64,000 nt of DNA from a bacterium SCSIO 12643 (GTDB lineage Bacteria > Bacteroidota > Bacteroidia > Flavobacteriales_G > Salibacteraceae), in contig CP073750.1 of the NCBI GenBank assembly GCA_024398135.1, positions 1,426,001-1,490,000 on the forward strand. Reading direction: 5' to 3'. The translations under genes and the position numbers were made by a program. How positions within the stretch are numbered: position 1 is the stretch's first letter; each line of letters starts with the position of its first letter. Shown in pieces: positions 2,448 through 21,312 of this stretch. The notes below the pieces were generated by a model. That model was not told the origin of the DNA. It did no database searches and saw nothing but the letters and a program-made list of their open reading frames with translations.

Positions 2448-2640
2448 GCCGCACAACGGCTCGTATAAGAAACGTAAGTGATTTCGAAGCTCCTACTTGT
2501 CAATTTGTACTGAGCCAAATTTGCGTTTTGACACAAATTAAAATATTAAACAACCCCGTCAAATCGCAGATTTGGCGGAGCTGATTAAATGTGCCAAAGT
2601 TTCGTAAACCACTGAGCCACTCATGTTTTTTATACATTGT
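2448..2640 (-). other. attC-like site 5 (main part, interrupted by the IS)
   Basis: Minus-strand orientation. The half-site GTTGTGCGGC that opens the restriction-modification cassette is at 2448-2457. The arms ACGAGTGG-like and TATACATTGT-type lie near 2458-2480 and 2621-2640. The long centre shares blocks with attC-1 at 12929: ACTGAGCCAAA, GATTTGGCGG and TTTCGTAAACCAC. The matching outer half-site GTTGTAAAC was displaced to 4381-4389 by the insertion sequence. Confidence 0.75.
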
Positions 2641-4378
2641 GTCTGTTGCGCAACTTACTAATTTAATGTGAATAAAGTTGTTGTAAATATCTAAAAATGA
2701 GCTGCTATTCAAATTATCTTTAGATATGCAAGGCGTAAAGACGTATCAAGAAAAGATATTTGCTCAATTTCAGTTGAGTGAACGTGTACCTAAAAATAAC
2801 TTTTACCGCAGATTAGGTGAAGTATTAGATCTTCATTTTTTGTATGCTAAGACTAAGCCTTATTATGGCAGTTGTGGCCAAAAAAGTGTCGACCCTGTGG
2901 TGTTTTTCAAACTCTGTTTGGTAGGCTATTTTGAAAACATTATTGGTGATAGGCCATTGATTACTCACTGTTCGATGCGATTAGATATCCTTTTCTTTGT
3001 TGGCTATGATATTGATGAAGACCTTCCATGGCATTCAACGATAAGTAGAACCCGACAATTGTTTCCTGAACTCATTTTTGAGGAGGTATTTAACCAAGTA
3101 TTTTCGATGTGCGTTGAAAAAGGGATGGTATCAGGTCACACCCAAGCCATTGACTCGGCTCCGATTAAAGCCAATGCGTCCATGGACACTTTAGAGCTCA
3201 AAGTGCCAAAAGAAGACTTAGAAACTCACTTGCAAAAAGTGAGGGTAATGAGTAAACCCGATAGAGTTTCTAAACGTAAAGCCAAAGAGAACAAAGCGAA
3301 TCAAGACCAACAAACCATTCAAGCCAATACCCATGAATTAAAAGGGATACAATCACGAAACAAAAAATGGAAAGAAGACCAAGACCAACGACCAGGAGCA
3401 TCTAATAAGGGATCTAAATATACCTCAAACAAAACGCATTATTCACCAACCGACCCTGATGCCAGAATAAGTGTTAAACCCGGAAAAGCACGTAAACTCA
3501 ATTTTATGAGCCAGCTATCGGTAGATACAGGGCACCATGTAATAACAGATATCTGGGCATACCATGCGGATAAGAAAGACAACCAATATCTTCAAGATAT
3601 CACTCTAAGATTAAAACAAAGACTTTGGCAAAACCGTCTACTCTGGAAAAACTGCTTGGCCGATACAGGCTACAGTAGTGGAGAGAACTATGCCTTTTTA
3701 GAAGGGCAAAATTTAGCCAGCTATATACCACCACATGGAACTTACAAAGGCGGTCCCGAAGGTTTTACTTATAGCAAAGAACACAACCATTACATCTGTC
3801 CCCAAGGAAAACCCATACCTTTTAAAAAGGTTTTCTATGAAAAGAAAAATAATACCAAAAAGAAAGAATACCGAGGTACACGGCACACCTGTAAAGACTG
3901 CCCAATCAAACTAACAATGTATAGGCAAATCTGCCCACGAAAAAAGGATCACCATCACCTATTACACCGAAGAATACGAACGCAATAACGCCCGAATAAA
4001 AAGTAAAAAGGGTAAGATGTTTAAAGCAAAACGCTCCAGTACCGTAGAACCTGTTTTTGGTGTACTTACCCAGTTTAGAAGCTTACGAAAAATTAACACC
4101 ATTGGAATTAAACAGGCAAACAAAGCCATGCATCTATCGGCCATTGCTTATAATCTCAAAAAATACTTGAAATTTACAACCCCAAAAGTGCAAGAAAACA
4201 AGAAGGAAGTGCTCGCAATAATAAATTGGATTTTTAGGCCGATTCAACTTCATTTCAAACCCTTTTAAGACACTCAAATTTTACTGCTACTTCGTCTAAA
4301 ACTAAAAACAAAGTATCCTTAAACGAGCTTTTTTTAGGTCATCATTTTACTTATTGAGGGGTTGCGCAACGATTACCG
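2641..4378 (+). mobile_element. IS1182-family insertion sequence inside attC-5
   Basis: About 1.74 kb containing one transposase frame. Palindromic GTTGCGCAAC lies near both ends (2645-2654 and 4361-4370), so it reads both as inverted and as direct repeat and leaves the exact ends uncertain. TTGT occurs at 2637-2640 and at 4379-4382, a possible 4-bp target duplication. Removing the element with one TTGT restores an attC arm reading TATACATTGTTGTAAAC, which matches the other attC sites. This is the best support for these boundaries. Confidence 0.75.
2726..4268 (+). pseudogene. IS1182-family DDE transposase, frameshifted
   Basis: The first frame (2726-3988, 420 residues) has the N-terminal DUF772 region (FFKLCLVGYFENI) and DDE aspartates in TQAIDSAPIKAN and LADTGYSSGENYAF. 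After CKDCPI the frame breaks. The rest of the protein (ITITYYTEEYERNNARIKS, then STVEPVFGVLTQFRSL with the catalytic Glu) continues in the +1 frame to 4268. The break maps to a run of six A at 3940-3945; five A would restore one continuous frame. The catalytic Glu is thus separated from the aspartates. A one-base insertion is the simplest cause. Programmed frameshifting is possible but unusual for this family. Confidence 0.85.
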
Positions 4379-4389
4379 TTGTTGTAAAC
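4379..4389 (-). other. Displaced outer half-site of attC-5
   Basis: The plus strand reads TTGTTGTAAAC. GTTGTAAAC at 4381-4389 is the exact reverse complement of GTTTACAAC at 5550-5558, the other end of the RES cassette. It is the R''-type half of attC-5 pushed away from its partner arm by the IS. Confidence 0.7.
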
Positions 4390-4427
4390 AGTTAAATTAC
4401 CTTATTATCGGGGAATCTATCAATATT

Positions 4428-5516
4428 TTAAATTAAATCGTACAAATCGTCTTTCCATTCGGATAGGTTTAATTTCATCGCATCGACTTTTAATAGTTTC
4501 CCTCTACCAGATTGTTCCTCCATTAAATCTGAATTAAAAAGTGTATAATTTCTATTACCAGTAAAAGAACTTCGAAAGCAGATTCCATCATAGTCTTTCC
4601 TAATAATTTCTTCAACAATAAGTTGAGTGTCAAGGTAGATAGAATTGGTACCATTACCTATCGGTTTTGAAAATAATGAATTAATTGCGGAAATTAACTG
4701 CAATTCTTTAACTGTAGAATAATTTTGCTTAAAATCCCAAATATTGGGATCAGTAAGGTCAAAAATTCTTAGTTCACTCTTGGAATGAAATTCTCCAATT
4801 GACACTAAATCTCCTTTTTGTGCACGGACTTCTAAAACGCTTGTATTGATGTCTTCAGCTAAATATAAGAATCCACAAAATGCTCTGTTAGCCCTTCCTG
4901 AATTAATTGCATCTTTAGGCGCAACGCCAATGTCCTTTTTGTCAAATGGAATTTTAACAGCTCTCCCATATTCTCCTGCAACTTCTTTACAACCAATTCG
5001 AGACCTATAACCAGATATCTTAGCTGTTTTCTTTTTAATCATTAATTCAGCCTTATTGACTAAATCTGTTGTTGCTTGTAATTTCTTTTTAAAATTATCT
5101 TCTGACGTTAAAGAATTTAATAATTTATGATGTTCTTCATTTACTAAAGCCCAAGGACTTGCCCAATGATCATTAAGAACTAATGTTTTAAAATCATTAT
5201 TTTTAATTGAGTAATACAGTGAATCGTATTTATCATTTTGTTCTATTTGTTTCCAATTAAAGAATAATTCTTCTTCATAGATGGTTACTAAGTAGTCTCT
5301 ATTTCCATAACGTCCATCCCAATCAGCTTGTGGATAAAAGTAGGCTACATAAGCTTCCAAATAAGGTTTAATATCTTCTATTGTGTCTTGATTTAATCCG
5401 AATAAATCTTTATTATCACAAAAGTCGCAATTGTCAATCTTTCTCCCAATTTTTATTATTTCTTCTCGAAGAGCTTCATTGTTTGAACATTTGTAACAGA
5501 TATTAAATTCTTCCAT
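4428..5516 (-). CDS. HEPN/RES-type protein with RES NAD-degrading toxin domain
   Basis: The 362-residue protein has two CxxC pairs at the N-terminus (Cys7/Cys10 and Cys30/Cys33), suggesting a small zinc site. A region resembling the HEPN/RES N-terminal domain follows. A RES domain occupies about residues 195-345: SGRANRAFCGFLYLAED, then TSVLEVRA with the conserved Glu-x-Arg, and DGICFRSS. RES toxins of the ParT/MbcT/Xre-RES group degrade NAD+ or modify proteins with ADP-ribose. The gene is alone in its cassette between attC-4 and attC-5, with no Xre-type antitoxin beside it. Function is inferred from the domain only. Confidence 0.75.
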   Translation of the reverse strand: MEEFNICYKCSNNEALREEIIKIGRKIDNCDFCDNKDLFGLNQDTIEDIKPYLEAYVAYFYPQADWDGRYGNRDYLVTIYEEELFFNWKQIEQNDKYDSLYYSIKNNDFKTLVLNDHWASPWALVNEEHHKLLNSLTSEDNFKKKLQATTDLVNKAELMIKKKTAKISGYRSRIGCKEVAGEYGRAVKIPFDKKDIGVAPKDAINSGRANRAFCGFLYLAEDINTSVLEVRAQKGDLVSIGEFHSKSELRIFDLTDPNIWDFKQNYSTVKELQLISAINSLFSKPIGNGTNSIYLDTQLIVEEIIRKDYDGICFRSSFTGNRNYTLFNSDLMEEQSGRGKLLKVDAMKLNLSEWKDDLYDLI

Positions 5517-5549
5517 TATTATTGAGTATGCAGTTTTTTTAGTGAAATT

Positions 5550-5686
5550 GTTTACAACGGTCTAGTATAAGAGCAGTAGTGGATTTTATGTAACTGCTTT
5601 TCGGATTACAATATACTTTAATTAAATGAAAAAACGGTTCAAGTTTGCACAAGAACCGCTATTGCTTTTATACCTTGTTGGGCATA
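5550..5686 (-). other. attC-like site 4 (between five-gene cassette and RES cassette)
   Basis: Read on the minus strand, TATGCCCAAC (5677-5686) opens the site, an arm AAGGTATAAAAGCAATAG follows, and the pairing arm CTACTGCTCTTATACTAGACC with GTTGTAAAC (5550-5558) closes it. The arms pair with a few unpaired bases, as in attC folded bottom strands. The centre holds an inner hairpin CGGTTC/GAACCG. TATGCCCAAC exactly complements GTTGGGCATA at the far end (9115) of the same cassette. Confidence 0.85.
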
Positions 5687-5690
5687 GTTT

Positions 5691-6155
5691 TTATTCATTC
5701 GGTTTAGTATAAGTAACTATATCTATTCCTATTCCATTTGGATCAACAATGGCAAAATGTCTATCTCCCCATGGTTCATTACGAATGTCTATTTCAATTT
5801 TAACACCTAATTCGTTCATCTTTTTATATATTTCATCCACGTTATCTACCTCAATAGTAAGATACATTCCTTTTCCTGCAAAAGGCGTTTGAAATATTGG
5901 TTTTTGTGTTGGGTGGTTCGGGAGTAAAAAGCTTAATTCTGCTTGTCGATTAGGCGTGTGCATTAAAAGATAGAATTCATTTTCAAAGGTGACGCCAAAA
6001 CCAAGAATTTTGCTGTAAAAATCTTTTGTTTCGGTTAATTTTTCTGTAATAATTCCTGCGTTTAGTTTCATGTTTTTTGTTTTTTGATTTGTTTGAGAAA
6101 ACATTGGAGTTGCTGTCAACAATACCAATGACATTTTAATAATAAATTTTTTCAT
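5691..6155 (-). CDS. VOC/glyoxalase-superfamily protein with N-terminal signal peptide
   Basis: The product has 154 residues. Residues 1-20 look like a Sec signal peptide (MKKFIIKMSLVLLTATPMFS). A single vicinal-oxygen-chelate module follows (LTETKDFYSKILGFGV, then EPWGDRHFAIVDPNGIGIDI), as in glyoxalase and bleomycin-resistance proteins. Most VOC relatives are cytosolic. An internal ATG at residue 29 (MKLNAGII) would give a leaderless cytosolic form of usual length. A TACATTTG -7 box lies about 26 bp upstream of the longer start, which favours that start. It is the last gene of the five-gene cassette, so it may be transcribed separately. Substrate unknown. Confidence 0.8.
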   Translation of the reverse strand: MKKFIIKMSLVLLTATPMFSQTNQKTKNMKLNAGIITEKLTETKDFYSKILGFGVTFENEFYLLMHTPNRQAELSFLLPNHPTQKPIFQTPFAGKGMYLTIEVDNVDEIYKKMNELGVKIEIDIRNEPWGDRHFAIVDPNGIGIDIVTYTKPNE

Positions 6156-6180
6156 ACCTATTTTATTTATGATTACATTA

Positions 6181-6188
6181 CAAATGTA
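6181..6188 (-). promoter_or_regulatory. Bacteroidota-type -7 box for the VOC gene
   Basis: The minus strand reads TACATTTG, a match to TAnnTTTG, in the 72-bp gap between the AraC-type regulator and the VOC gene. It suggests the VOC gene has its own promoter. Confidence 0.5.
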
Positions 6189-6227
6189 TGATGCAACAAA
6201 AATTATAGATTGTAAAAAACGGACGTT

Positions 6228-7049
6228 TTAATAGGTATTGCTAAAAGCTTTACTAGGTGTTACTCCATAAAAGGTTTTAAAATCTTTTATAAAGTGCGAT
6301 TGGTCATAGTGTCCTGTGTCGTAAAAGAGTTTATTTTGGTTAAGGCTTTGATTAGAAGGTTTTGCTTTTAATATATTTTGAAATTGAACAACTTTACTAA
6401 AGGTTTTAGGTGAGTCGCCAATATAAAAGTGAAACAATCTTCTTAATTGTCTAATGCTCAAGCCAACATCTAAATCTTTCTCAAGATTTAGTACGCCATA
6501 ATTGTTGAGAATAATGTCTATTGCGGTGTACAACCTACTATCATAATCAAAAGTTATTTTCTTTAAAACACTCTCAAAGTAGTGATCAAAACTTGCCTTT
6601 ATCTCATTGGAGGTCATTTCTTGGTGGAAATGTTTGGCAATGAATTGTGAGGTTTTTGGAGCAAAACCTTCCAAATTTTGGAACTTATTACTTAAATCTT
6701 TTGCATTTACTTTAAATATTTGTGGAAATATGGTTGGCAAAAACCGAATACCAACATAATTAAACTCTGGATTAAGTTCGTATTCTGTATATTTTCTGCA
6801 AAAGCCAGCAACAAAATTATCCTGTGGCTTATTTATTTCAAATAGTATGTCAATACAACCATCAGAAACCACTTTGTAACTAAAAGGGGTGACTAATTTT
6901 TTATTGGTTTTTAATTGCCAATAGCAATATATGTATGGTTGTAGCTTAATAGATGGCAAAAATTCACAATAAGAAACACTTCCACCTGTTGGCATTACAG
7001 TCGGTTGAATGGGTTGAAATAGTTCTCGAATATGTTTAGTAATACTCAT
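6228..7049 (-). CDS. AraC-family transcriptional regulator
   Basis: The protein has 273 residues. The N-terminal ~130 residues resemble the sensor region found in many Bacteroidota AraC proteins (LQPYIYCYWQL, SDGCIDILFE, VGIRFLPTIFP). The C-terminal ~100 residues carry the two AraC helix-turn-helix units, ending in QSHFIKDFKTFYGVTPSKAF, the family signature. It starts 18 bp after the DUF4350-like gene stops and ends 72 bp before the VOC gene, so it may control its cassette neighbours. Ligand unknown. Confidence 0.9.
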   Translation of the reverse strand: MSITKHIRELFQPIQPTVMPTGGSVSYCEFLPSIKLQPYIYCYWQLKTNKKLVTPFSYKVVSDGCIDILFEINKPQDNFVAGFCRKYTEYELNPEFNYVGIRFLPTIFPQIFKVNAKDLSNKFQNLEGFAPKTSQFIAKHFHQEMTSNEIKASFDHYFESVLKKITFDYDSRLYTAIDIILNNYGVLNLEKDLDVGLSIRQLRRLFHFYIGDSPKTFSKVVQFQNILKAKPSNQSLNQNKLFYDTGHYDQSHFIKDFKTFYGVTPSKAFSNTY

Positions 7050-7067
7050 TTTGCCAAATTTGATAAG

Positions 7068-8030
7068 TCATTTAATATTAGCAAGCCACCTTAAAACATT
7101 CAGAAACAATGCAGCATTATCGCATTCTGGGTCATGAATGGTAACTGGTATTTTTTCGTCATCAATTAGTAAATCCAAGCTTCTAAACATACCTTGGTCT
7201 GTAGCAATAACAACTCTACCCATACCGTACTCAAAACCAATCATTCCTGCATAGGCATCAGAGATTTCTTCAATATCTTCACTGTTTTTTGCTGGAGTAA
7301 AGTTGGTCGTGTTGTTTGGGAATGCTAATATCACGTCTTCGGGGTTTCTAAAAACCGCTGCTCCACAAAGGAATTTCACATTGTTTGGCATTGGTGTTTT
7401 TAGGTTAAGATTGTCCTTAAAAACAGGGTGATCTTTCTTTAAAAGATTGTTTTTATCATTCATCAAGAAATGACTGCATAACCCACCATTATGCCCAAGG
7501 TAATTTGGGTGAAAAGCGTAACCATCTCTAAACTTTACCTGAAAAGCTTCTAAAAGCGGTAATGCACCACTACCATTTGGGAAATGACTTAAAAATAAGA
7601 GTAAACTTCCACCATTGTATACGTATTTTACAATATCAATTACTTCTTTATTGCTTAACGGAGATTTATACAAGGTTTCTTCCTTTTCACCACTATTTAA
7701 GGCAATCTTATCGTTTGGCATACCATGCAATATCAAAATATTGGATTCGGATTTTGCTAAATGTATTGAATCAAGGGGCTGCTTTGTAAACACGAGTTCA
7801 AACCCATCAGCCTCCATTATTCTTAACATTTCCCTAGCACTTGCCTTTCCGTATGGTAATGAGTAAATCGTATTATGTGCTTCTGTTACTAATACTTTTT
7901 TTGAATGAGTGGTTTTTAACGGTTCAAATTGATACTTAAATATTGTGTCAAATTCAGCTTCAACTGTATTTTGGGCATTTAGTTTTCCTACGAGAATGCA
8001 GAGAAATATGAATAAGGCTTTAATCTTCAT
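7068..8030 (-). CDS. Secreted DUF4350-like (glutamine-amidotransferase fold) protein
   Basis: The product has 320 residues and a clear Sec signal peptide ending in GKLNAQ. The body resembles DUF4350/GATase-like proteins: KKVLVTEAHNTIYSLPYG at the start, ILILHGMPND and YNGGSLLLFLSHFP in the middle, and GMIGFEYGMGRVVIATDQG near the end, the last resembling the closing strand of that fold. I see no catalytic Cys-His-Glu triad of a true amidotransferase, so a binding role is more likely. It starts 1 bp after the upstream gene stops, so it is translationally linked to it. Confidence 0.65.
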   Translation of the reverse strand: MKIKALFIFLCILVGKLNAQNTVEAEFDTIFKYQFEPLKTTHSKKVLVTEAHNTIYSLPYGKASAREMLRIMEADGFELVFTKQPLDSIHLAKSESNILILHGMPNDKIALNSGEKEETLYKSPLSNKEVIDIVKYVYNGGSLLLFLSHFPNGSGALPLLEAFQVKFRDGYAFHPNYLGHNGGLCSHFLMNDKNNLLKKDHPVFKDNLNLKTPMPNNVKFLCGAAVFRNPEDVILAFPNNTTNFTPAKNSEDIEEISDAYAGMIGFEYGMGRVVIATDQGMFRSLDLLIDDEKIPVTIHDPECDNAALFLNVLRWLANIK

Positions 8031-8031
8031 T

Positions 8032-8697
8032 TTAGTTACAGTTCAGTATTTTGCGTTCTGTTTCATTATATTCTTTTTGTAACTGTGTACCAAGTTGGGT
8101 TGAAAATTTTAAAATTCTAATCAGCTCATCAATGGTTTCTTTTTTAAGAGAGTTGCTCGCTTTACTAACTTCCTCCACTACTTTAGCTTGTAGATTGTAA
8201 ACATTTTCCAATTGATACATGCACTCAAAACTTAATTCAGAACTGATATTGGTAGATACTGTGGTTTTCCATGCAATATCGGTTAACAGCGGTAATTCCA
8301 TTTCAACTTTTGTTGTACCTAAGTACCTAAAACTGTACTCATCAATTGAAATAGAATCGTTTATGATAAAGAAATTTGGGTGTTTTGATTGAAGCTCTTT
8401 CATCTTAACGGGAGTCGTTATGAGTTCAGTAGTGTTCTGATTATACAAGCCTTTATATTCAGTATATGCCTTTAAAATCGTTTCATAATTGTGAAGAGCT
8501 GTATTTAATTCTTTTTTATTACTTCCTATTTCTTCAACTATATTTTTGATTGCAATAGTTTTTTTTTGATTAATTTTTTTTGATTCATTCCAATTATTAA
8601 ACCAAATGGCCAAATTAATTCCGATAAAAAGCAGAAGGATTTCGCGAAAGATGTATTTCCAATTATTCTTGGCTGATTTTTTTAATGATTTAAACAT
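8032..8697 (-). CDS. DUF6090-like single-pass membrane protein
   Basis: The protein has 221 residues. A basic N-terminus precedes one membrane helix at about residues 17-34 (IFREILLLFIGINLAIWF), then the motif NNWNESKK and a long helical, probably coiled soluble part. This order (REI-LL--GI-LAI-FNNWNE) is typical of DUF6090 proteins, common in Flavobacteriia and of unknown function. It lies 8 bp after the upstream small membrane protein and 1 bp before the DUF4350-like gene. The tight spacing makes the first three genes of this cassette one operon. Confidence 0.7.
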   Translation of the reverse strand: MFKSLKKSAKNNWKYIFREILLLFIGINLAIWFNNWNESKKINQKKTIAIKNIVEEIGSNKKELNTALHNYETILKAYTEYKGLYNQNTTELITTPVKMKELQSKHPNFFIINDSISIDEYSFRYLGTTKVEMELPLLTDIAWKTTVSTNISSELSFECMYQLENVYNLQAKVVEEVSKASNSLKKETIDELIRILKFSTQLGTQLQKEYNETERKILNCN

Positions 8698-8705
8698 AGT
8701 TGAAT

Positions 8706-9035
8706 TTATTCTTTTTTTTGCGATTTTTTAAAATTTCCTTTTGCCCATTTTTCTTGTAATTCAAGATACTTTTCTTTTGGTTCACATGTTAACCAATCAA
8801 TATCATTTTCTTTACAAATTTTAGTATGGAATAAAAGTCCAATCAGTGGATGAACAATTATAAATATTAAGCCCCAATGCCCAAACCAACGTACCATCAC
8901 AAATGAAATTCCTATATAAAAGATAAATTTTCCAGGTATTTTCCATTTAGGGCGCACAAATCGTCCGTTGTGTAAATATCCAACAAACCAAATTATGGCA
9001 GCAACAATTATATAAATTAACTCAAAAGTTCTCAT
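8706..9035 (-). CDS. Small membrane protein, first gene of the five-gene cassette
   Basis: The product has 109 residues, three predicted membrane helices (about residues 3-20, 35-50 and 52-68) and a charged C-terminal tail rich in Lys and Glu. I do not recognise the family. It begins about 80 bp inside the cassette from the 9115 half-site and is followed after 8 bp by the DUF6090-like gene, so it probably shares that transcript. Another short membrane protein in the cassette fits a cell-envelope theme, but no function can be assigned. Confidence 0.65.
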   Translation of the reverse strand: MRTFELIYIIVAAIIWFVGYLHNGRFVRPKWKIPGKFIFYIGISFVMVRWFGHWGLIFIIVHPLIGLLFHTKICKENDIDWLTCEPKEKYLELQEKWAKGNFKKSQKKE

Positions 9036-9114
9036 TTTTTTTTTTTGACTTTTATTCGTATCAATTACTACACAATGTCAGGTTTTGAAATGGTGTTGGT
9101 TTGTTGCACTAAAT

Positions 9115-9188
9115 TATGCCCAACGGTCTGTATATGGTGCGTTGCCGTCCCACAGGGCGGCTATGCACTATATACCTTGTTGGCGGTA
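9115..9188 (-). other. attC-like site 3 (compact, 74 bp)
   Basis: This is the shortest and clearest site. On the minus strand TACCGCCAAC (9179-9188) is followed by AAGGTATATAGTGC, a GC-rich inner hairpin around GGGCGG/CCGTCC, GCACCATATACAGACC and GTTGGGCATA (9115-9124). The arms pair with a bulge, as in attC. The two half-sites belong to different cassettes, and each complements the far end of its own cassette exactly. Confidence 0.9.
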
Positions 9189-9195
9189 GTTCTCT

Positions 9196-9606
9196 TTAAT
9201 TTGATTCAACATATTTCTTGAAGTTGTCTAAAATTGCTTGCCATCCTTGTCTTTGCATATCAATCGAGTTTTCATCTTCTACTTCAAAGGTCTCGATAAC
9301 TTCTGTTTTATCCCCAATTTCTGAAAATGAAATTGTAACTTTTCTACCATCATCTAATTTATACTCCATCAATTCGTTTGGTTCGATTTTTGTAAATGTC
9401 GCAGTGTAATCAAAGGCCATACTGCCATCCTTGGCAGCCATGTGATAGTTGAGTTTTCCGTCTACTTTCAAATCATGCTCGGCTTTTGGGCAATGCCATT
9501 CGGGCGATGCAAAATTCCAATTTTTGATATGTTCGGGGGTTGTCCATAGTTCCCAAACTTGATTTACTTTCCTGTTAATTGTGTTTTGAACTTTTACCGT
9601 TTTCAT
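9196..9606 (-). CDS. SRPBCC/AHSA1-family protein
   Basis: The protein has 136 residues, the usual length for an activator-of-Hsp90 homology (AHSA1/SRPBCC) lipocalin-like fold: start TINRKVNQVWELWTTPEHIKNW, centre DYTATFTKIEPNELMEYKLDDG, end QRQGWQAILDNFKKYVES. Such proteins bind small hydrophobic ligands. It follows another SRPBCC gene by 2 bp, and both follow an ArsR regulator. ArsR-SRPBCC operons are frequent in Bacteroidota, but the ligand is generally not known. Confidence 0.9.
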   Translation of the reverse strand: MKTVKVQNTINRKVNQVWELWTTPEHIKNWNFASPEWHCPKAEHDLKVDGKLNYHMAAKDGSMAFDYTATFTKIEPNELMEYKLDDGRKVTISFSEIGDKTEVIETFEVEDENSIDMQRQGWQAILDNFKKYVESN

Positions 9607-9608
9607 TT

Positions 9609-10097
9609 TTAGTCTTTTAAGTTTTTTAATAAGTTATCTAAATTTTCATATGCCATTGACAAGCCTTCTTTCATTCCCATCTGAATTACTTGCTGCAAAT
9701 GTTCTTCAGAAGCATATTGAGTGATTACAGTTACAGCGGTTTGAGTAGAATTTGATACAAAATTATTCTTGAACTTAGCAACTGGCATTTCTTGATTTAT
9801 AATACCATGATCGTCACAAAAAGCATCCTCACCTGAAAATTCGAAAGGCTTGTTAACCTTTTTATAGGTAGTTAGTCCCCAATGTTCTTCTCCGTTCGGC
9901 CCACACATGGCATAAAGTCTTTGCCCATTTTCTTCGAAGACCATCCGTTTGGTTTTGGACTCCCATGGTTTGGGTGCCCACCACTGGTCAAGTAGTTCTG
10001 CTTCTGTCCATGTACGCCAAACAAGGTCAATTGAGGCATTAAATATTCGAGTCACTGTTAGTTGACTTCCGTTTGTTCCAAATTTTGTCTCAGTCAT
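9609..10097 (-). CDS. SRPBCC/AHSA1-family protein
   Basis: The product has 162 residues. It starts with the SRPBCC signature LTVTRIFNASIDLVWRTWTE and then LLDQWWAPKPWES; the C-terminus ends in a helix that closes the fold (MKEGLSMAYENLDNLLKNL). Its start lies inside the end of the ArsR gene (8-bp overlap), and the next SRPBCC gene follows 2 bp later. The three genes are one transcript and form one cassette. The two SRPBCC proteins are clearly different subfamilies, so this is not a recent duplication. Confidence 0.9.
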   Translation of the reverse strand: MTETKFGTNGSQLTVTRIFNASIDLVWRTWTEAELLDQWWAPKPWESKTKRMVFEENGQRLYAMCGPNGEEHWGLTTYKKVNKPFEFSGEDAFCDDHGIINQEMPVAKFKNNFVSNSTQTAVTVITQYASEEHLQQVIQMGMKEGLSMAYENLDNLLKNLKD

Positions 10098-10422
10098 TTC
10101 GGTTTTCTTTATTGTCCTGTAGTTTAGTTAACAGAGAGTCTAATTGGTCAAAGCGTGACTCCCAAATTTTACGGAATGGTTCTAGCCAATCAGCAACTTC
10201 AGATAGGGTTTGAGCTTCTAGTTTACAATAGCGTTCTCTTCCTTCCTTATTGATTGAGATAACCCCACATTCCTGCAAATATTTAACATGAAGTGATACT
10301 GCTTGCCTTGTCATATCGTACTTATCTGCTAGAGCATTTACATTTTGAGCTTCTGTCGTTAAGGACATTAGTATGCTCCTTCGTGTTGGGTCTGCAATGG
10401 CATTGAAAACATCTCTTCTCAT
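10090..10422 (-). CDS. ArsR-family winged-helix regulator of the SRPBCC cassette
   Basis: The protein has 110 residues. The winged helix is the ArsR type: VFNAIADPTRRSILMSLTTE, ALADKYDMTRQAVSLHVKYLQ, and wing GRERYCKLEA. It lacks an obvious metal site such as ELCVCDL, unlike the second ArsR of this array, so its signal is probably not a soft metal. Two palindromes that resemble its own operators flank the promoter upstream. It overlaps the first SRPBCC gene by 8 bp. Autorepression of the operon is inferred from the palindromes. Confidence 0.9.
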   Translation of the reverse strand: MRRDVFNAIADPTRRSILMSLTTEAQNVNALADKYDMTRQAVSLHVKYLQECGVISINKEGRERYCKLEAQTLSEVADWLEPFRKIWESRFDQLDSLLTKLQDNKENRND

Positions 10423-10440
10423 AATTACTTAATTAGATAT

Positions 10441-10485
10441 GCAAGTTATAGCTTGCAAATATAAGCGCAAGATTTTACTTGCGCA
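10441..10485 (-). promoter_or_regulatory. Promoter with two ArsR-type operator palindromes
   Basis: GCAAGTTATAGCTTGC (10441-10456) and GCGCAAGATTTTACTTGCGC (10466-10485) are two inverted repeats sharing the GCAAG/CTTGC half-site. Between and touching them, the minus strand reads TATATTTG (10456-10463), a Bacteroidota -7 box. Binding of the regulator would cover the promoter. Confidence 0.7.
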
Positions 10486-10541
10486 AAATAATTTCCTTAA
10501 ATTTTTGATAATAGAGGTTGTTTTGTTAGGTGTTTTCTAAT

Positions 10542-10676
10542 TACCGCCAACGGTTAGTATATGAAAAGTAGGCGATTTCGAAGCACGAAACTTTCGGTTA
10601 AGCACAAGCTTTATATGAGTAAAAAGCCTTGATTTTACTGCTGTTTTGCCTATTTTTTATATACATTGTTATGCCC
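10542..10676 (-). other. attC-like site 2 (metal cassette / SRPBCC cassette)
   Basis: On the minus strand GGGCATAAC (10668-10676) and arm AATGTATATAAAAAATAGGC pair with GCCTACTTTTCATATACTAACC, then GTTGGCGGTA (10542-10551). GGGCATAAC is the exact complement of GTTATGCCC at 12929, the other end of the metal cassette. GTTGGCGGTA is the exact complement of TACCGCCAAC at 9179, the other end of the SRPBCC cassette. Confidence 0.85.
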
Positions 10677-10717
10677 TTTTTTTATTTTTCACGTTCTGTT
10701 TTTAGCGTTGGCAAAGA

Positions 10718-10776
10718 CATACTCTTTTACAATTTCAGGCTTGCGTGTTGGCTTGTGCGAATTGTAAATGTGTATG
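10718..10776. repeat. Cassette-associated covarying hairpin, copy 3
   Basis: The outer stem CATA (10718-10721) pairs with TATG (10773-10776). Fixed strands CTCTTTT (10722-10728) and AAATGTG (10766-10772) match the other copies. The inner stem is ACAATT/AATTGT instead of the GGTTTTTT pairing of copy 1, a full compensatory change. GCGTTGGC lies on both sides and GTGTTGG in the loop. This copy lies between the cation transporter and attC-2. Confidence 0.75.
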
Positions 10777-10798
10777 GCTTTAAGCGTTGGCTATTCAG

Positions 10799-11593
10799 TT
10801 ACTTGCTCAATTTTAAAATCCTAAATGCTCCTTGAATTACCAAACCAAAAACAATTGTTCCAATAATTAAGTCAGGTTTGCTTGAGTTCAACCAATTTAC
10901 CAAAAGTCCAGCGATTATAACTCCCAAATTTATGATAACATCATTTGAGGTAAAAATCATACTCGCTTTCATATGAGCCTCTTCTTTACTCTTTGACTTT
11001 TGCAAAATGTAAAGGCAAATTCCATTTGCGATAAGTGCAAAAATCGAAACAATAATCATAGTTGAAAAGTCGGGAAGTTTCTCGTCTCCGAAAAATCTCC
11101 TTAAAACTTCCACAAATCCAATAATCGCAAGTGTTATTTGAAAATACCCAGCAAGTTTTGCAATCCGTTTTTTCTTAATCAACGTTCCTCCAACCGCAAA
11201 CAAGCTAATTCCGTAGACGAAACTGTCGGCAAGCATATCTAAACTATCTGCAACAAGTCCCATTGATTTTGAGATTATTCCTGTTGTCATTTCGATAATG
11301 AAAAAGGCAAAATTGATTGCAAGTACAGACCAAAGTAGCTTTTTTTGGTTTGCATTTTCATTAAATGCCGTTTGGTTGGTCTGTTCGGTCGAAATTTTCT
11401 TGCCGCCTAAATTTAGTTCGATAACGGACTTTTCGATTTGGTCGGTTTCTCCGCTGTGAAAAACGGTCAATTTTCGGTTTGGAATATCAAAGTCCAAATT
11501 TTCAATACTTGAAATTTCGTCCAGTTTCATTCGGATTAAATTTTCCTCTGAAGGACAATCCATTTTGGTTATTTCAAAGATTGTTTTTTGCAT
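10799..11593 (-). CDS. Cation transporter, CDF-like, with N-terminal metal-binding-type domain
   Basis: Using ATG 11593 the protein has 264 residues. The first ~65 form a ferredoxin-like HMA-type domain (TIFEITKMDCPSEENLIRMK) with one Cys. Six membrane helices follow, with the CDF signature in SMGLVADSLDMLADSFVYG, whose aspartates are metal ligands in the family, and ASMIFTSNDVIINLGV. A longer start at 11608 would overlap the upstream gene. It is the last gene of the ArsR-MerTP-GDCCVxC operon, so export or compartmental handling of the sensed metal is the likely role. Substrate is inferred. Confidence 0.85.
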   Translation of the reverse strand: MQKTIFEITKMDCPSEENLIRMKLDEISSIENLDFDIPNRKLTVFHSGETDQIEKSVIELNLGGKKISTEQTNQTAFNENANQKKLLWSVLAINFAFFIIEMTTGIISKSMGLVADSLDMLADSFVYGISLFAVGGTLIKKKRIAKLAGYFQITLAIIGFVEVLRRFFGDEKLPDFSTMIIVSIFALIANGICLYILQKSKSKEEAHMKASMIFTSNDVIINLGVIIAGLLVNWLNSSKPDLIIGTIVFGLVIQGAFRILKLSK

Positions 11594-11598
11594 ATCTA

Positions 11599-11805
11599 TT
11601 AACAGCAACTTTTATTTTCTTGAATTGGTGGACAAGGCACAGTACCATATGAACAATAAACACAACAATCTCCCTCTTTTGGCTTTAAAACCTGCTTACA
11701 ATTTTCGCATTCGTAGAAAAATTGACAAGCGTTTGTTGGCATATCTTCCACTTTTTTATGTCCGCAGTTTGGACAAGTGATTTCAGACTTTAATATAGTT
11801 TCCAT
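11599..11805 (-). CDS. Small Cys-rich GDCCVxC-type metal accessory protein
   Basis: The product has 68 residues, ten of them Cys: a zinc-ribbon-like N-terminus (CPNCGHKKVEDMPTNAC), CENCKQ, then the family motif GDCCVYCSYGTVPCPP and a terminal CC. GDCCVxC-domain proteins occur next to mercury-type transporters in Bacteroidota and are described as transporter accessory proteins. Here it lies 5 bp after merTP and 5 bp before the cation transporter. A metal-relay role is likely but inferred from context. Confidence 0.85.
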   Translation of the reverse strand: METILKSEITCPNCGHKKVEDMPTNACQFFYECENCKQVLKPKEGDCCVYCSYGTVPCPPIQENKSCC

Positions 11806-11810
11806 TAATT

Positions 11811-12404
11811 TTATTTTTTGTCGGTTACTTTATAACCCGTTGAATTAATTGCTTTCTCAATTTCCGTTTCACTGGTTTTGGTCCTATCAAATTCAATGAT
11901 TGCGTTTCCATTTTCGTAAGACGCTTTTGAGTTTACAATTCCATTGAGTTTATTTACTTCGTGATTGACGTGTTCTTCGCAACTCGCACAAGTCATTCCG
12001 CTGATTTTAAATTCCGTTGTTTTAATGTCCGATTTGTCAACTACGATTACTTGCTTTTCTGTATTTGGATAAAAAATTCCTGAATAGTATGGGAAAGCCA
12101 ACATCACAATTGCAAATACAGTTACAATTCCTAAAAATTTCTTTGATTGTATAAATTTTGGTTTCTCGTCCGTTTCACATTCGCAGTCAATTTCTTTTCG
12201 AGGTTTTAGTTTTTGATACCAAGCAAAACCAAGAACTAAAATTGTAAGTCCGATTAAATAAGGTCTAAAAGGTTCTATCCAAGAAAATGTTGAAGCAATT
12301 CCGCTTGTTCCTGCAATTAAAGCCAAAACTGGTGTAATACAGCATAAAGAAGCTGTAATTGCAGTTAACAAACCTGCACCAATTAATTTGTTTTCACTTT
12401 TCAT
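11811..12404 (-). CDS. merTP: MerT-MerP fusion mercuric transport protein (MerTP)
   Basis: The protein has 197 residues. The N-terminal half has MerT-like membrane helices with the paired cysteines in the first helix (TASLCCITPVLALIAG). Helices around residues 48-65 and 90-108 follow. The C-terminal ~70 residues form a MerP/HMA domain with motif GMTCASCEEHVNHEV, the metal-binding CxxC. In Gram-negative Mer systems MerP hands Hg(II) to MerT for uptake toward MerA. No MerA is present in this cassette. The start codon overlaps the ArsR stop by 4 bp (ATGA), showing translational coupling. Confidence 0.9.
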   Translation of the reverse strand: MKSENKLIGAGLLTAITASLCCITPVLALIAGTSGIASTFSWIEPFRPYLIGLTILVLGFAWYQKLKPRKEIDCECETDEKPKFIQSKKFLGIVTVFAIVMLAFPYYSGIFYPNTEKQVIVVDKSDIKTTEFKISGMTCASCEEHVNHEVNKLNGIVNSKASYENGNAIIEFDRTKTSETEIEKAINSTGYKVTDKK

Positions 12405-12775
12405 ATCGTTTCTAAAATTTTGTTTTTATCAAGTATCTCAAAGAATGGATTTAGCATTTTTTCGTATTCAGCCGTGAGTGAATAAAAAATCGTTTGGGCT
12501 TCTCTATCGGTTTCCAATAGATTTCGGTCTTTCATTTTTCTCAAATGTTGAGAAATAGCAGAAATATTCATTCCGAGAATATCGCTCAAATCACAAACGC
12601 AAAGTCTTTTTTCTTCAAATAGCAGGTAAAGAATTTTCAGTCGAATGCTATTTCCGACTAATGAAAGTCCGTTTGCTAAATAGTCGAAGGATTCGTTTAA
12701 TTCCGAAACTGTGTCTTTGCAACGATTTATTTGTTCAATATCGGCTTGTTGTCTTATGCAAGAGTTATTATCCAT
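12401..12775 (-). CDS. ArsR/SmtB-family metal-responsive repressor
   Basis: The product has 124 residues. The winged helix contains the soft-metal motif as LCVCDLSDILGMN with two Cys in the recognition-helix region, the alpha-3 site of ArsR/CadC-type sensors. A further Cys lies near the N-terminus (NNSCIRQQ). ISAISQHLRKMKDRNLLETDR is the DNA-binding part. It is the first gene of the metal cassette, overlaps merTP by 4 bp and has a palindrome in its promoter. Derepression by a thiophilic metal such as Hg, As or Cd is expected from the family. Confidence 0.9.
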   Translation of the reverse strand: MDNNSCIRQQADIEQINRCKDTVSELNESFDYLANGLSLVGNSIRLKILYLLFEEKRLCVCDLSDILGMNISAISQHLRKMKDRNLLETDREAQTIFYSLTAEYEKMLNPFFEILDKNKILETI

Positions 12776-12779
12776 AAAA

Positions 12780-12818
12780 CAAAGTTACGGTTATTTATTA
12801 TTTAAGCAAATACTTAAA
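12780..12818 (-). promoter_or_regulatory. Promoter and ArsR-type operator of the metal cassette
   Basis: The minus strand reads TAACTTTG at 12780-12787, a TAnnTTTG box only 4 bp before the ATG, implying a nearly leaderless mRNA. TTTAAGCAAATACTTAAA (12801-12818) is an inverted repeat in the position of the -33 region, a good operator for the ArsR encoded next to it. Confidence 0.65.
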
Positions 12819-12843
12819 TACATAATTTTCAAGCGTTGGAAGA

Positions 12844-12905
12844 AAATAGCTCTTTTGGTTTTTTTGCATTGGCTTTCGTGTCGGCAAAAACCAAATGTGC
12901 TATTT
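12844..12905. repeat. Cassette-associated covarying hairpin, copy 2
   Basis: The outer stem AAATAG (12844-12849) pairs with CTATTT (12900-12905). Fixed strands are CTCTTTT (12850-12856) and AAATGTG (12893-12899). The inner stem GGTTTTT pairs with AAAAACC (12886-12892). GCGTTGG precedes the element and a GCGGTTGGC variant follows. It lies between the metal-cassette promoter and attC-1, so copies 2 and 3 bracket the metal operon in the same orientation. Confidence 0.75.
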
Positions 12906-12928
12906 GTGCGGTTGGCTTTTTTTTAATT

Positions 12929-13127
12929 GGGCATAACGTTTAGTATATGGCAAGTAGGGCATTAGAATGCGATGAGCTTTCAAGTTTGCACTGAGCCAAA
13001 ACGTTGTATTTTGTTTTTAATTTATTCATTCTTAAAAGCCAAATCAACGATTTGGCGGTGTTTGTAAATAGCACTGAACTTTCGTAAACCACAAACGCCC
13101 TATTTGCTATATACAGTGTTGTATGGC
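12929..13127 (-). other. attC-like site 1 (first cassette / metal cassette)
   Basis: On the minus strand GCCATACAAC (13118-13127) and arm ACTGTATATAGCAAATAGGGC pair with GCCCTACTTGCCATATACTAAAC, then GTTATGCCC (12929-12937). At ~199 bp it is one of the two long sites and shares central blocks with attC-5 at 2448. GCCATACAAC exactly complements the half-site at the other end of its cassette (13650-13659), beside the integrase. Confidence 0.85.
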
Positions 13128-13130
13128 GTT

Positions 13131-13634
13131 TTAATTCTTAATCATTATTCCGTCCAACTTATCTTTATCAATCCAGAATTCCACAGTTTTCGATTCAAGT
13201 TCTTTATCAATCTTTTCATTCCGTATTTTATAATTCTGAATAACAACTCGAACCTTGATTCTGTCTTTTTCTAATTGAACTATTTCGGTATCATAAATCC
13301 GTTTACTAATGCTTTTGTCGTAATTCTCTATTTCCAGAAACTGGTCATTAAAGGAACCATGGTCAACATAGATTGCCCTTCTTTCAATTAAAACCGTCTT
13401 ACCATTATTTATCAATAAGTGAGCTGTGTCTTGAGGCATCACATAATGTCTAACACTTCGCTTTTCCGGCTTTTTAATTTTTAGCCAATCATGTTTAAAG
13501 TCCAGTTTTATTTGGGTGTTCAAATAATCTGAATTGAGAGAATCAATTTCAACATATCCAATGTTCCAGCTCCCTTGTGAAAAGCAACTGGTTCCAATGA
13601 ACCCAATTAAAATTATGCTTAAAATATATCTCAT
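13131..13634 (-). CDS. Hypothetical secreted protein, first cassette
   Basis: Using ATG 13634 (MRYILSIILIGFIGTSCFSQ) the product has 167 residues with a signal peptide; GTSC could also serve as a lipobox. An upstream ATG at 13658 would lie inside the cassette half-site and is less likely. The rest is a beta-rich soluble domain without motifs I recognise; it ends in VEFWIDKDKLDGIMIKN. It is the only gene in the cassette next to the recombinase, the position where newly acquired integron cassettes normally sit. It stops 4 bp before attC-1. Confidence 0.75.
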   Translation of the reverse strand: MRYILSIILIGFIGTSCFSQGSWNIGYVEIDSLNSDYLNTQIKLDFKHDWLKIKKPEKRSVRHYVMPQDTAHLLINNGKTVLIERRAIYVDHGSFNDQFLEIENYDKSISKRIYDTEIVQLEKDRIKVRVVIQNYKIRNEKIDKELESKTVEFWIDKDKLDGIMIKN

Positions 13635-13649
13635 TAGATTTTCTTTAAT

Positions 13650-13700
13650 GCCATACAACGTACGTGTATATGTACAAGTAAATATATACGCACTATATGT
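13650..13700 (-). other. Putative attI-like primary recombination site
   Basis: The cassette half-site GTTGTATGGC (minus strand, 13650-13659) abuts sequence with two inverted core-like boxes, GTGTATAT (about 13664-13671) and ATATACGCAC (about 13683-13693), separated by about 12 bp. This resembles a double-strand core site for a tyrosine recombinase. It differs from attC because no second complementary half-site or long hairpin exists. It sits at the 3' end of the integrase gene. Confidence 0.6.
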
Positions 13701-13701
13701 T

Positions 13702-14850
13702 TTATTCCAAATGTATGGAATCTAAAGGATTTTTTATTTTTTTAAATGAACTTATAGCAACATGTGTGTAAATTTCGGTTGTTCTGCTACTATTGTGCCC
13801 AAGAAGGGTTTGAATATATCTTAAATCTGTTCCTGCTTCTAATAAATGAGTGGCGAAGGAATGTCTTAAAATATGTGGTGTTACCTGTTTGTTGACCCGT
13901 GCATTTTTTGCTGAATTTTTAATAACCTTTGATACGCTTTCGGGAGAATATTTCCCACCGCGTAGCCCTTCGAATAAATATTTTTTTGGTTTCCATTCCT
14001 TGAAATAAACTCTCAAGTCTTTCAGAAGTGATTCAGATAATAATGTATATCTGTCTTTGTTCCCTTTAGCTCCCTCTACTCTAATGGTCATTCTTTTACT
14101 GTCAATATCAGATATTTTTAGATTTAACAATTCGCTTCTTCTCAGACCTGAAGAATAGAGTATACCTATAATACATCTGTGTTTTAAGTTGATGGTGTTA
14201 TTTATTATGATACTAATATCTTCTTTACTTAATACTTTAGGTAGTACTTGATTCTTTCGAGGTCTTTCAATTGCGTAGAATCTATTAGGCATTTCTAAGA
14301 CTACTTCGTAATAAAACTTGATCGCATTTATGGCTTGATTAAGATAGCTATTTGATCTATTTTCTTGAACAAGTTTCTGTAAATAGGATCTCACATCATT
14401 TTCATTTAAACTTAACAAATTGACATGTTTATAATGGTTAATGAAAGCTTCAAAAAACTTAACATATGTCTTAACGGTATTGTTTGAATATTTCTTTAGT
14501 TCTAATTTCATTAAATATTCTTCTGGACAGACTCTATAATTTTTATCAACTGTACGTTTTCTGAACCAATTGACATCAATGGGGCCATTTTCTATGTCAA
14601 TAGGTCTATTGATAAAAAAGTGACTGCAATTAACCCAGGCAACACCTCTAAATTTTTCAAATATTTTATCCAAATTAGATTTGTTATTTAATATATAGAC
14701 CATGCCAAACTCATTACTCCATTTAGGATTTGGAAGTTCCTTTATTAAAGCTTGAATAACTTTATTAGGGTAGAATTTTAATCCAATTTGTTTTTGATTT
14801 TCGATCAGTAGGTGTTTAAGAGTAATCGCATATTGGTGGTTATATTTCAT
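13702..14850 (-). CDS. Tyrosine recombinase, proposed integrase of the cassette array
   Basis: The protein has 382 residues. An N-terminal extension of about 110 residues precedes a SAM-like core-binding domain (about 112-195) and a catalytic domain. Catalytic residues are visible: Arg237 (SSGLRRSELL), Lys265 (GNKDR), His326-x-x-Arg329 (PHILRHSFATH), His352 (LLGHNSSR) and nucleophile Tyr361 (TEIYTHV). The ending KNPLD resembles the SPLD ending of IntI. The IntI-specific insertion before the HxxR box is absent: only about 45 residues lie between KDR and the next conserved strand. It is therefore Xer/phage-like, not canonical IntI. It is co-directional with every cassette gene and directly abuts the array. 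TACTTTTG lies 8 bp upstream. Confidence 0.9.
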   Translation of the reverse strand: MKYNHQYAITLKHLLIENQKQIGLKFYPNKVIQALIKELPNPKWSNEFGMVYILNNKSNLDKIFEKFRGVAWVNCSHFFINRPIDIENGPIDVNWFRKRTVDKNYRVCPEEYLMKLELKKYSNNTVKTYVKFFEAFINHYKHVNLLSLNENDVRSYLQKLVQENRSNSYLNQAINAIKFYYEVVLEMPNRFYAIERPRKNQVLPKVLSKEDISIIINNTINLKHRCIIGILYSSGLRRSELLNLKISDIDSKRMTIRVEGAKGNKDRYTLLSESLLKDLRVYFKEWKPKKYLFEGLRGGKYSPESVSKVIKNSAKNARVNKQVTPHILRHSFATHLLEAGTDLRYIQTLLGHNSSRTTEIYTHVAISSFKKIKNPLDSIHLE

Positions 14851-14896: not shown

Positions 14897-14928
14897 TGAT
14901 TATAAACGTTTATAAGTGATTACAAACG
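14897..14928. repeat. Direct repeats upstream of the recombinase
   Basis: TGATTATAAACG (14897-14908) and TGATTACAAACG (14917-14928) are direct repeats with a 20-bp period, about two helical turns, followed by a weaker third unit (ACAACAAATG). They lie 40-80 bp upstream of the recombinase start. They could be arm-type recombinase sites or an operator. Confidence 0.6.
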
Positions 14929-15399: not shown

Positions 15400-15618
15400 A
15401 TGACTGAAATAGGTAAGTTTTTAAATAAGAAATCAGTAAACAAGGCTGAAATAGCTAGACGTACTGGAATAAGCACTTCTCGCCTAAGCGAGTTGAGTTT
15501 AAAAGAATCAACACGTTTTACAGTAGAAGAATTATATCTAATAGCTTTAGCAATAGATATCAAACCCGCAATTGTACTGGAAGAAGTATGTAAAAACTTA
15601 AAACTTAATCCTCGATAA
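15400..15618 (+). CDS. Small XRE-family regulator of the defence operon
   Basis: The protein has 72 residues, nearly all a helix-turn-helix of XRE type: KAEIARRTGISTSRLSELS, then TVEELYLIALAIDIKP. It is the first gene of the island operon, and its stop overlaps the next start (TAATG), so the two are co-translated. Autoregulation of a potentially toxic operon is the probable role, inferred from position. Confidence 0.85.
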   Translation: MTEIGKFLNKKSVNKAEIARRTGISTSRLSELSLKESTRFTVEELYLIALAIDIKPAIVLEEVCKNLKLNPR

Positions 15619-18083: not shown

Positions 18084-18085
18084 AA

Positions 18086-18730: not shown

Positions 18731-18732
18731 TT

Positions 18733-21223: not shown

Positions 21224-21228
21224 TCCAG

Positions 21229-21312
21229 TACCCGGGGCGGGAATCGAACCCGCACTCTGTTGCCAGAACTGGATTTTGAATCCAGCGCGTCTACCAGTTC
21301 CGCCACCCGGGC
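21229..21312 (-). tRNA. tRNA-Leu (CAA anticodon)
   Basis: This is an 84-nt class II tRNA. The acceptor GCCCGGG pairs with CCCGGGT (the 1-72 pair is G-U), followed by discriminator A. The D-arm region is GGCGGAACTGGTAGACGC. Anticodon arm CTGGA-TTCAAAA-TCCAG gives CAA. A variable arm (TTCTGGCAACAGAG) and T-arm GCGGGTTCGATTCCCGC follow. CCA is not encoded. This is the intact tRNA nearest to the island. Confidence 0.95.

Follow-up and report, generated by a model that had tools for sequence, protein, structure and literature searches.

A probable attI site at the 3' end of a Xer-like recombinase gene in the Bacteroidota bacterium SCSIO 12643

The probable attI site and the end of conservation

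Where do gene cassettes enter the array that follows a tyrosine recombinase gene in bacterium SCSIO 12643? The stretch analysed, called the window here, comprises 64,000 nucleotides (nt) of contig CP073750.1 (positions 1,426,001 to 1,490,000 of the forward strand). The recombinase gene (14850-13702, minus strand) is followed in the same direction by cassettes, and a sequence-only reading of the window had proposed that attI, the site at which cassettes enter, is at the 3' end of this gene. We consider it very probable that the site is indeed attI, the entry site of a one-direction integron-like platform made up of recombinase, attI and cassettes.

The two inverted boxes of that reading, GTGTATAT at 13664-13671 and ATATACGCAC at 13684-13693 (plus strand, spacing 12 bp), were both located as claimed. 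They are parts of a longer dyad on the minus strand, GTGCGTATATATTTAC-TT-GTACATATACACGTAC (13693-13660), with arms at 13693-13678 and 13675-13660 and a 2-bp centre, and this dyad was taken as the attI palindrome from its sequence and from the layout in close relatives. The right arm ends at GTT (13659-13657), the start of cassette 1, 42 bases after the end of the recombinase gene. The G/TT crossover point (13657..13659, minus strand) was placed by the end of conservation to two related loci, L018 and L004. It lies at the right-hand edge of the palindrome and not between the boxes. The proximal (right) arm, with the GTGTATAT box, is likely to be the L box, and the first bases of the cassette the R box. 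The range first noted, 13650-14850, does contain the site (about 13657-13700), but most of it is recombinase gene (13702-14850).

Two close comparisons carried the test of the junction: L018, a contig of a metagenome-assembled genome (MAG) named Flavobacteriaceae, and L004/L054, a relic copy elsewhere in this genome. The L018 recombinase was 99.7% identical to that of the window, and the blastn match (99.06% over 1593 bp) ended at 13657. The relic had 109 aligned C-terminal residues with 90% identity, and the blastn match of L004 (94.7% over 342 bp) ended at 13656. Beyond the common GTT, the window, L018 and L004/L054 continued with GTTGTATGG, GTTATGCCC and GTTGGGCAC, respectively, which are different first cassettes. 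Both comparisons were constant up to GTT and variable beyond it, as had been predicted for related sequences. The match of L022/L008 extended to 13640 because their own head, GTTGTATGCC, resembles that of the window. Judged from these sequences, the end of conservation at GTT together with different first cassettes at the same site identifies the site as the putative attI.

Furthermore, the attI of L018 directly adjoins a mer-like cassette with 92.9% identity over 2.28 kb to cassette 2 of the window, and therefore the 722-bp cassette 1 (12938-13659) is absent there, GTT to GTT. The pair is suggestive of one insertion or loss.

The attI was said to have no attC hairpin. This is right, because neither strand folded better than its shuffles (-3.4 kcal/mol; z scores of +0.42 and +0.85), while attC1 to attC3 do fold; attI as a folding site was rejected on the same grounds. 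Close relatives showed different letters in a similar layout, a palindrome and then GTT 0-7 bases on. Strong palindromes, equalled by 0 or 1 of 200 shuffles, were present in L007, L023, L026 and L040 (L040 and L009 are one and the same place), and weak ones (10-29 of 200) in L021, L038, L019 and L039.

Distribution among related recombinases

A homolog at E ≤ 1e-62 was found in 128 of 296 genomes of the class, a maximum for the platform, as some of these homologs may have no array behind them. Downstream DNA was obtained for 88 recombinase loci, not all of them independent (the window and L018, and likewise L106 and L107, have near-identical recombinases). After 17 loci with less than 1000 bp downstream were dropped, 71 were counted. 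A cassette was called where the recombinase was followed by a GTT head no more than 260 nt away, by a 9-base tail that matched it exactly, and by an attC stem. By this parse a cassette followed the recombinase in 41 of the 71 loci, and 10 shuffles gave 0-3 of 71; with a stricter stem cut, the numbers were 33 of 71 and 0-1, respectively. The placement of attI at the 3' end of the recombinase gene, in the direction of the array, is common in the family. The opposite, divergent layout gave 1 weak match in 41. A family recombinase followed by a GTT head, a 9-base tail and an attC was also observed on a Chryseobacterium plasmid (L144:7116-9383), and therefore platforms occur on plasmids.

The cassette array

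The array in the window consists of four clear cassettes and a degenerate fifth, all on the minus strand. The head of each clear cassette recurs as its exact reverse complement at the tail of the same cassette, and each tail opens an attC. Cassette 1 (12938..13659, 722 bp) has the head GTTGTATGG and the tail CCATACAAC and contains an open reading frame (ORF) at 13131-13658 with no Pfam match. Cassette 2 (10552..12937, 2386 bp; head GTTATGCCC, tail GGGCATAAC), whose relative stands at the attI of L018, encodes ArsR, MerTP-like and cation efflux proteins. Cassette 3 (9125..10551, 1427 bp; head GTTGGCGGT, tail ACCGCCAAC) encodes an HTH_20/HTH_5 regulator and two AHSA1 proteins. Cassette 4 (5559..9124, 3566 bp; head GTTGGGCAT, tail ATGCCCAAC) encodes an HTH_18 regulator, a glyoxalase-like protein and three ORFs without Pfam match. 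The corresponding attC1 (12935..13126), attC2 (10549..10676), attC3 (9122..9187) and attC4 (5556..5685) are 192, 128, 66 and 130 nt long, respectively; the first three were assigned by stem scan and folding and attC4 by stem scan. In the degenerate cassette 5 (2455..5558), the head GTTGTAAAC mismatches the tail-side TTGCGCAAC; it contains a RES-domain ORF (4428-5516) and attC5 at about 2653-2455, and plus-strand ORFs at 2726-4268 were transposase-like by eye.

In the stem scan of the whole window, the four attCs scored 29.0-33.0 and topped the minus strand, where the next score was 25.0. The best score on the plus strand was 26.0, apart from mirror images of the four attCs and of the degenerate fifth. 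A search of the whole genome with the attC left-end pattern returned 7 sites, of which 3 lie in the window, 3 in the array of L054 and 1 elsewhere; the reversed pattern returned 1. The locus has two features of an integron, namely an attI adjoining the integrase gene with a G/TT junction, and a cassette array with matching heads and tails and attCs. Two attC-like sites were also seen outside both arrays (L141:5457-5668 and 7248-7428; G000:C1 near 2106462), with no PF00589 match there.

Anatomy and predicted strand folding of the attC sites

With the stem cut set at 18, 41 of the full 88 loci contributed a total of 91 distinct attCs. Several features took no part in this selection. The base preceding GTT was C in 88 of the 91 attCs, head base 4 (after GTT) was A or G in 89, and wobbles of the bottom type outnumbered those of the top type by 160 to 23 (75 to 6 in a first set of 39).

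The L arms paired without gaps over at least 14 columns in 78 of the 91 attCs. Extrahelical bases, as in attCs of IntI-based integrons, were mostly lacking, since a one-base bulge improved the stem by at least 4 in only 16 of the 91. As a control, two class 1 attCs on plasmid pB8 gained 5.5 and 10 from a bulge, in a search that allowed two more positions than for the 91 and that placed one of the two best bulges on the L' side. The cassettes of the array in G179, the sole genome of the class sample with an IntI over the cut-off, gave no parse with the same script. What the arms show in place of bulges is a difference at fixed positions. Counted from the R'' AAC, 74 of 81 sites differ at position 14 and 47 of 91 at position 9, and these positions likewise played no part in the selection. 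Where the arms differ, it is mostly by A versus G, which on the top strand mismatches as A-C and on the bottom strand pairs as G-T. Three of the four clear attCs of the window were folded in silico, and their bottom strands reached -18.4, -19.2 and -32.7 kcal/mol, compared with -14.8, -15.6 and -27.1 kcal/mol for the top strands, respectively. Integrons use the bottom strand, and imperfections of the palindrome decide the choice of strand (PMC8946536). We infer that in the present family the G-T wobbles may tell the two attC strands apart in place of extrahelical bases.

The lengths of the 91 attCs clustered near multiples of 65, with 14 at 58-71, 47 at 127-133, 12 at 192-195 and two at 246-247 nt. 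The inner parts of the 47 attCs of 127-133 nt had a median identity of merely 43%.

A possible but less likely alternative is recognition of attC in double-stranded form, without folding, so that A/G differences between the arms would do no more than mark left from right. It would suit a recombinase without the part said to confer single-strand recombination (PMC7790495), and both L' of attC1 and the attI arm contain CATATAC. However, the arm differences pair as G-T on the bottom strand with the strong bias given above, which is expected if bottom-strand folding is kept, and the bottom strands fold better.

The recombinase

The recombinase (382 amino acids; 13702..14850, minus strand) matched PF00589 and, by alignment, has a XerA-like core, lacks the IntI-specific domain and carries about 105 extra N-terminal residues. 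It passed the NCBIfam model NF040815 with 238 bits (cut-off 220) and fell short of the IntI model TIGR02249 with 206.5 bits (cut-off 265). The alignment to IntI4 was in two pieces, with 52 IntI4 residues left out between them, and the match to TIGR02249 was likewise in two pieces. At the place of the IntI-specific domain (I2), the window protein has 55 residues and the IntI of the class sample 97. In an alignment of 36 proteins (33 of the family, 25 of these labelled with an array, one IntI and two Xer-like), the 33 family recombinases have 54-60 residues where the single IntI of the class sample has 97. The tree of the 36 proteins leaves IntI either inside or beside these recombinases. The best solved relatives were 4a8e by sequence, and 5hxy and 4a8e by fold, ahead of IntI4; the fold comparison used an AlphaFold model of moderate quality (pLDDT of 68.7).

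Residues 1-105 (14536-14850) were conserved in close relatives. This N-terminal part gave no Pfam match in three of four proteins and a match with an E value of 0.19 in the fourth, and it may be the part that recognises DNA in place of the missing domain. The other PF00589 matches in this genome were only the relic and two complete recombinases of 302 and 314 residues. No canonical IntI over the TIGR02249 cut-off was found in this genome, and 1 was found in 149 genomes of the class. A canonical IntI elsewhere in this genome as the working enzyme was rejected, as none was over the cut-off.

The IntI-specific domain is said to be necessary for cassette capture and single-strand recombination (PMC7790495), and it has been called a defining characteristic of IntI (PMC9668308) and distinguishing of it (PMC9024848), while one survey describes the insertion as 'not fully conserved' in an integron-like subgroup (PMC8138268). 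By the domain, the recombinase is not an IntI, although as far as the sequence tells it would work like one.

It is improbable that the locus is an ordinary integron with a standard integrase, merely reversed as in Treponema. Integrase and cassettes are indeed transcribed in the same direction, in the window and in 41 of 71 relatives, and Treponema denticola has reverse integrons with attI beside a co-directed intI (PMC7691350). The protein passes NF040815, which bears the name 'site-specific tyrosine recombinase/integron integrase', and the incomplete conservation of the insertion in the integron-like subgroup (PMC8138268) fits as well. Against this stand the missing domain, with the two-piece matches to IntI4 and TIGR02249, the mostly bulge-free attCs with their wobble signature, and the lack of a canonical IntI over the cut-off that could serve such arrays in this genome and in all but one of the 149.

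The comparison with known systems gives the same picture. Class 1 and other IntI integrons share with this platform the attI beside the integrase, the G/TT crossover, the matching cassette ends, the better predicted folding of the bottom strand, and an attC with R'', L'', L' and R' and a central unpaired spacer (anatomy in PMC8946536). The platform differs from them in having no IntI-specific domain, an attI at the 3' end of the gene that is palindromic in this clade, and attCs mostly without a bulge and with fixed G-T wobbles instead. The reverse integrons of T. denticola also have co-directed integrase and cassettes, with attI and a putative promoter between them, but they belong to another phylum and are described with S1/S2 and the direct repeats DR1/DR2 (PMC7691350), where the present attI has a palindrome. 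Archaeal XerA, the best solved relative, is a chromosome dimer resolvase (Xer subgroup, PMC8138268), whereas here the gene heads a cassette array and the protein has an extra N-terminal part. NF040815 is the name of a protein model, without a description of attI, attC or array. Among the matches listed in the open-access literature, judged by title and start of abstract, no description of this system was found; the combination of tet(X) and integrons was not searched.

Expression of the first cassette and genomic surroundings

The sequence-only reading had suggested that new cassettes could use read-through from the integrase gene. This is not the sole candidate. A promoter-like element, TACATTTG (13708..13715, minus strand), overlaps the last codons of the recombinase and contains the motif TAnnTTTG, which we take to be the -7 element of Bacteroidetes. 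Of 83 loci, 29 had TAnnTTTG near the recombinase stop, compared with a mean of 7.9 and a maximum of 13 in shuffles. It was present in 16 of 23 close relatives, in 14 of them at the stop codon (-5 to -14), and it is kept in L039 and L040 although the stop codon precedes the motif there. No TTG was seen by eye at the usual distance from TAnnTTTG. Going by these motifs, a promoter at the 3' end of the recombinase gene is a candidate as well. Upstream of the recombinase gene, a perfect palindrome, TTATAAACGTTTATAA, was found at 14900-14915, with a promoter-like TACTTTTG at 14865-14858; the palindrome is possibly an operator of the recombinase gene.

The segment at 15618-20881, adjoining the platform, encodes a GHKL ATPase protein, a small protein, an HNH nuclease (PtuB-like in PADLOC) and a type II methyltransferase, and these genes are likely to form a defence or restriction group. 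Five of the platforms have a tRNA-Leu gene upstream (window 21228-21312; L018:986-1071; L054:6199-6281; L031; L013). No more than 0.4 kb separates the two in L018 and about 0.1 kb in L054, where the platform is the relic; in the window the distance is about 6 kb and other genes intervene.

Proposed mechanism and remaining alternatives

We infer that this recombinase does the work. It would bind attI as double-stranded DNA on the palindrome and cut at G/TT on the edge of the palindrome. A circular cassette would present its attC, most likely as a folded bottom strand. On insertion, attI would keep its left part, and the cassette would bring GTTR... as the new right part. Such insertion would leave cassettes with matching ends, a GTTRNNNNN head and its reverse complement as the tail. 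Transcripts that start at the promoter-like element at the 3' end of the recombinase gene, or that run through from this gene, would then cover the first cassette.

Several observations weigh against this reading. The palindrome of the window scored 8.5 and was equalled by 16 of 200 dinucleotide shuffles, so that taken alone it is at chance level. Several distant relatives have no palindrome that stands out (L045, L051 and L053, equalled by 199, 173 and 109 of 200 shuffles, respectively), and the palindrome is therefore an attI feature of the close clade and not of every member. The L018 pair is not a strict before and after, because L018 is a MAG contig and its mer cassette is 7% apart from that of the window, with another attC. 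No cassette was parsed in 30 of the 71 loci, some of them with close recombinases (L038, L039, L026, L079, L083). The stem threshold took part in the selection of the attCs, and therefore only the features named above as unselected count as independent. A gain of at least 4 from one bulge does occur in the 16 attCs already mentioned. The top strands fold too, less well (z scores of -3.08, -1.66 and -2.79).

Slightly less credible even than a reversed ordinary integron is that homologous recombination at long attC repeats, or transposition, moves the cassettes, the recombinase being a bystander or serving another element. Sequence is indeed shared by long attCs of different genomes (94.5% over 182 bp), a tRNA-Leu gene is close to some platforms, as with genomic islands, and transposase-like ORFs are present in the array; yet homologous exchange is not expected to break at one base by attI, whose only common sequence with attC is a short box, nor to make matching 9-base ends that differ between cassettes. 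Least probable of all is a role of the palindrome in regulation or termination of the recombinase gene, with the cassette junction beside it by coincidence, for although the dyad is palindromic, follows the stop codon and is alone at chance level, its hairpin stability is not above shuffles, both close comparisons break at GTT, close relatives keep palindrome and GTT adjacent with other letters, and neither close comparison shows the palindrome kept with GTT and cassette displaced.

A possible connection to tet(X)

A search of plasmid proteins returned a shortened recombinase (TnpF) with 55% identity over 230 amino acids, the match starting at window residue 148. It lies directly upstream of tet(X3) in L142 (plasmid pHH1107, uncultured bacterium) and of tet(X5) in L143 (an Acinetobacter baumannii plasmid). 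The order recombinase, palindrome, GTT and gene, all co-directed, is that of the platform in the window, the gene here being tet(X). Unlike in the window, the protein is N-terminally shortened and the palindrome, TATACGCCA-TT-TGGCGTATA, followed by GCCACTT and GTTATGTGCC, lies about 145 bases past its stop (L142:4700-4910; L143:4880).

A tet(X) relative (86%) also occurs inside the array of G252, a genome of the same class as the window, as a cassette with the order attC, GTTATGTGC, gene, GCACATAAC, attC (L145:1355-2682/L152). This cassette and the plasmid tet(X) were identical for 75 bases from GTT and unrelated in the 40 bases preceding. A query with the plasmid junction matched 62 plasmid records, of which 50 hold the whole junction (49 Acinetobacter and 1 uncultured). 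For the other 12, the 10 matches listed start at query base 181 (9) or 180 (1); base 181 is the G of GTT, and 9 of these 10 partial matches are Bacteroidota by genus name. With L145 as the query, seven tet(X3) rows among the matches listed start at base 79, which is the same G.

Other results speak against a tet(X) connection. The palindrome of L142 was equalled by 10 of 300 shuffles, and neither L142 nor L143 yielded a tail for the tet(X) cassette. The tet(X4) records among the matches listed matched L145 only from base 113 or 121 (or 397), inside the gene, and therefore the cassette start is not kept there. Seven tet(X)-like loci were present in 6 of 395 genomes of the class, with attCs only at the 86% one (L145/L152) and none at the six of 45-64% identity. 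Taken together, the sequences suggest that relatives of this system appear to have carried tet(X). In G252, at least 6 attCs also surround ORFs that by eye resemble efflux, SMR, aminoglycoside adenylyltransferase and tet(X) genes (L152:2730-12420, minus strand), and this array is a candidate multi-resistance array.

Significance

With moderate confidence, we propose that the platform represents a widespread Bacteroidota lineage of integrons without the IntI-specific domain. A Xer-like recombinase with an N-terminal part of its own would capture cassettes into a palindromic attI just behind its own gene by reading the folded bottom strand of attC through two G-T wobbles in place of extrahelical bases. 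The lineage would have been largely missed because searches require the domain, and it would be the source of tet(X) for Acinetobacter and other pathogens. Integrons are on record for Bacteroidota (PMC8618304, PMC2426708), and the paper on IntegronFinder 2.0 mentions In0 elements alone from earlier work and one complete integron, in Salinibacter ruber (PMC9024848). Against that record, 41 of the 71 loci sampled here had cassettes.

The literature holds that double-strand recombinases gave rise to integrons by way of the IntI-specific domain (PMC7790495). A common natural system with integron anatomy and without this domain makes the claim that the domain is needed testable. Either cassette capture can do without the domain, or a different solution has arisen in these recombinases; the wobble pairs offer a concrete candidate for the feature being read. 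For tet(X), a mobile tetracycline-inactivating gene, such cassette ends would provide a mechanism for its spread and show where related resistance cassettes may be found.
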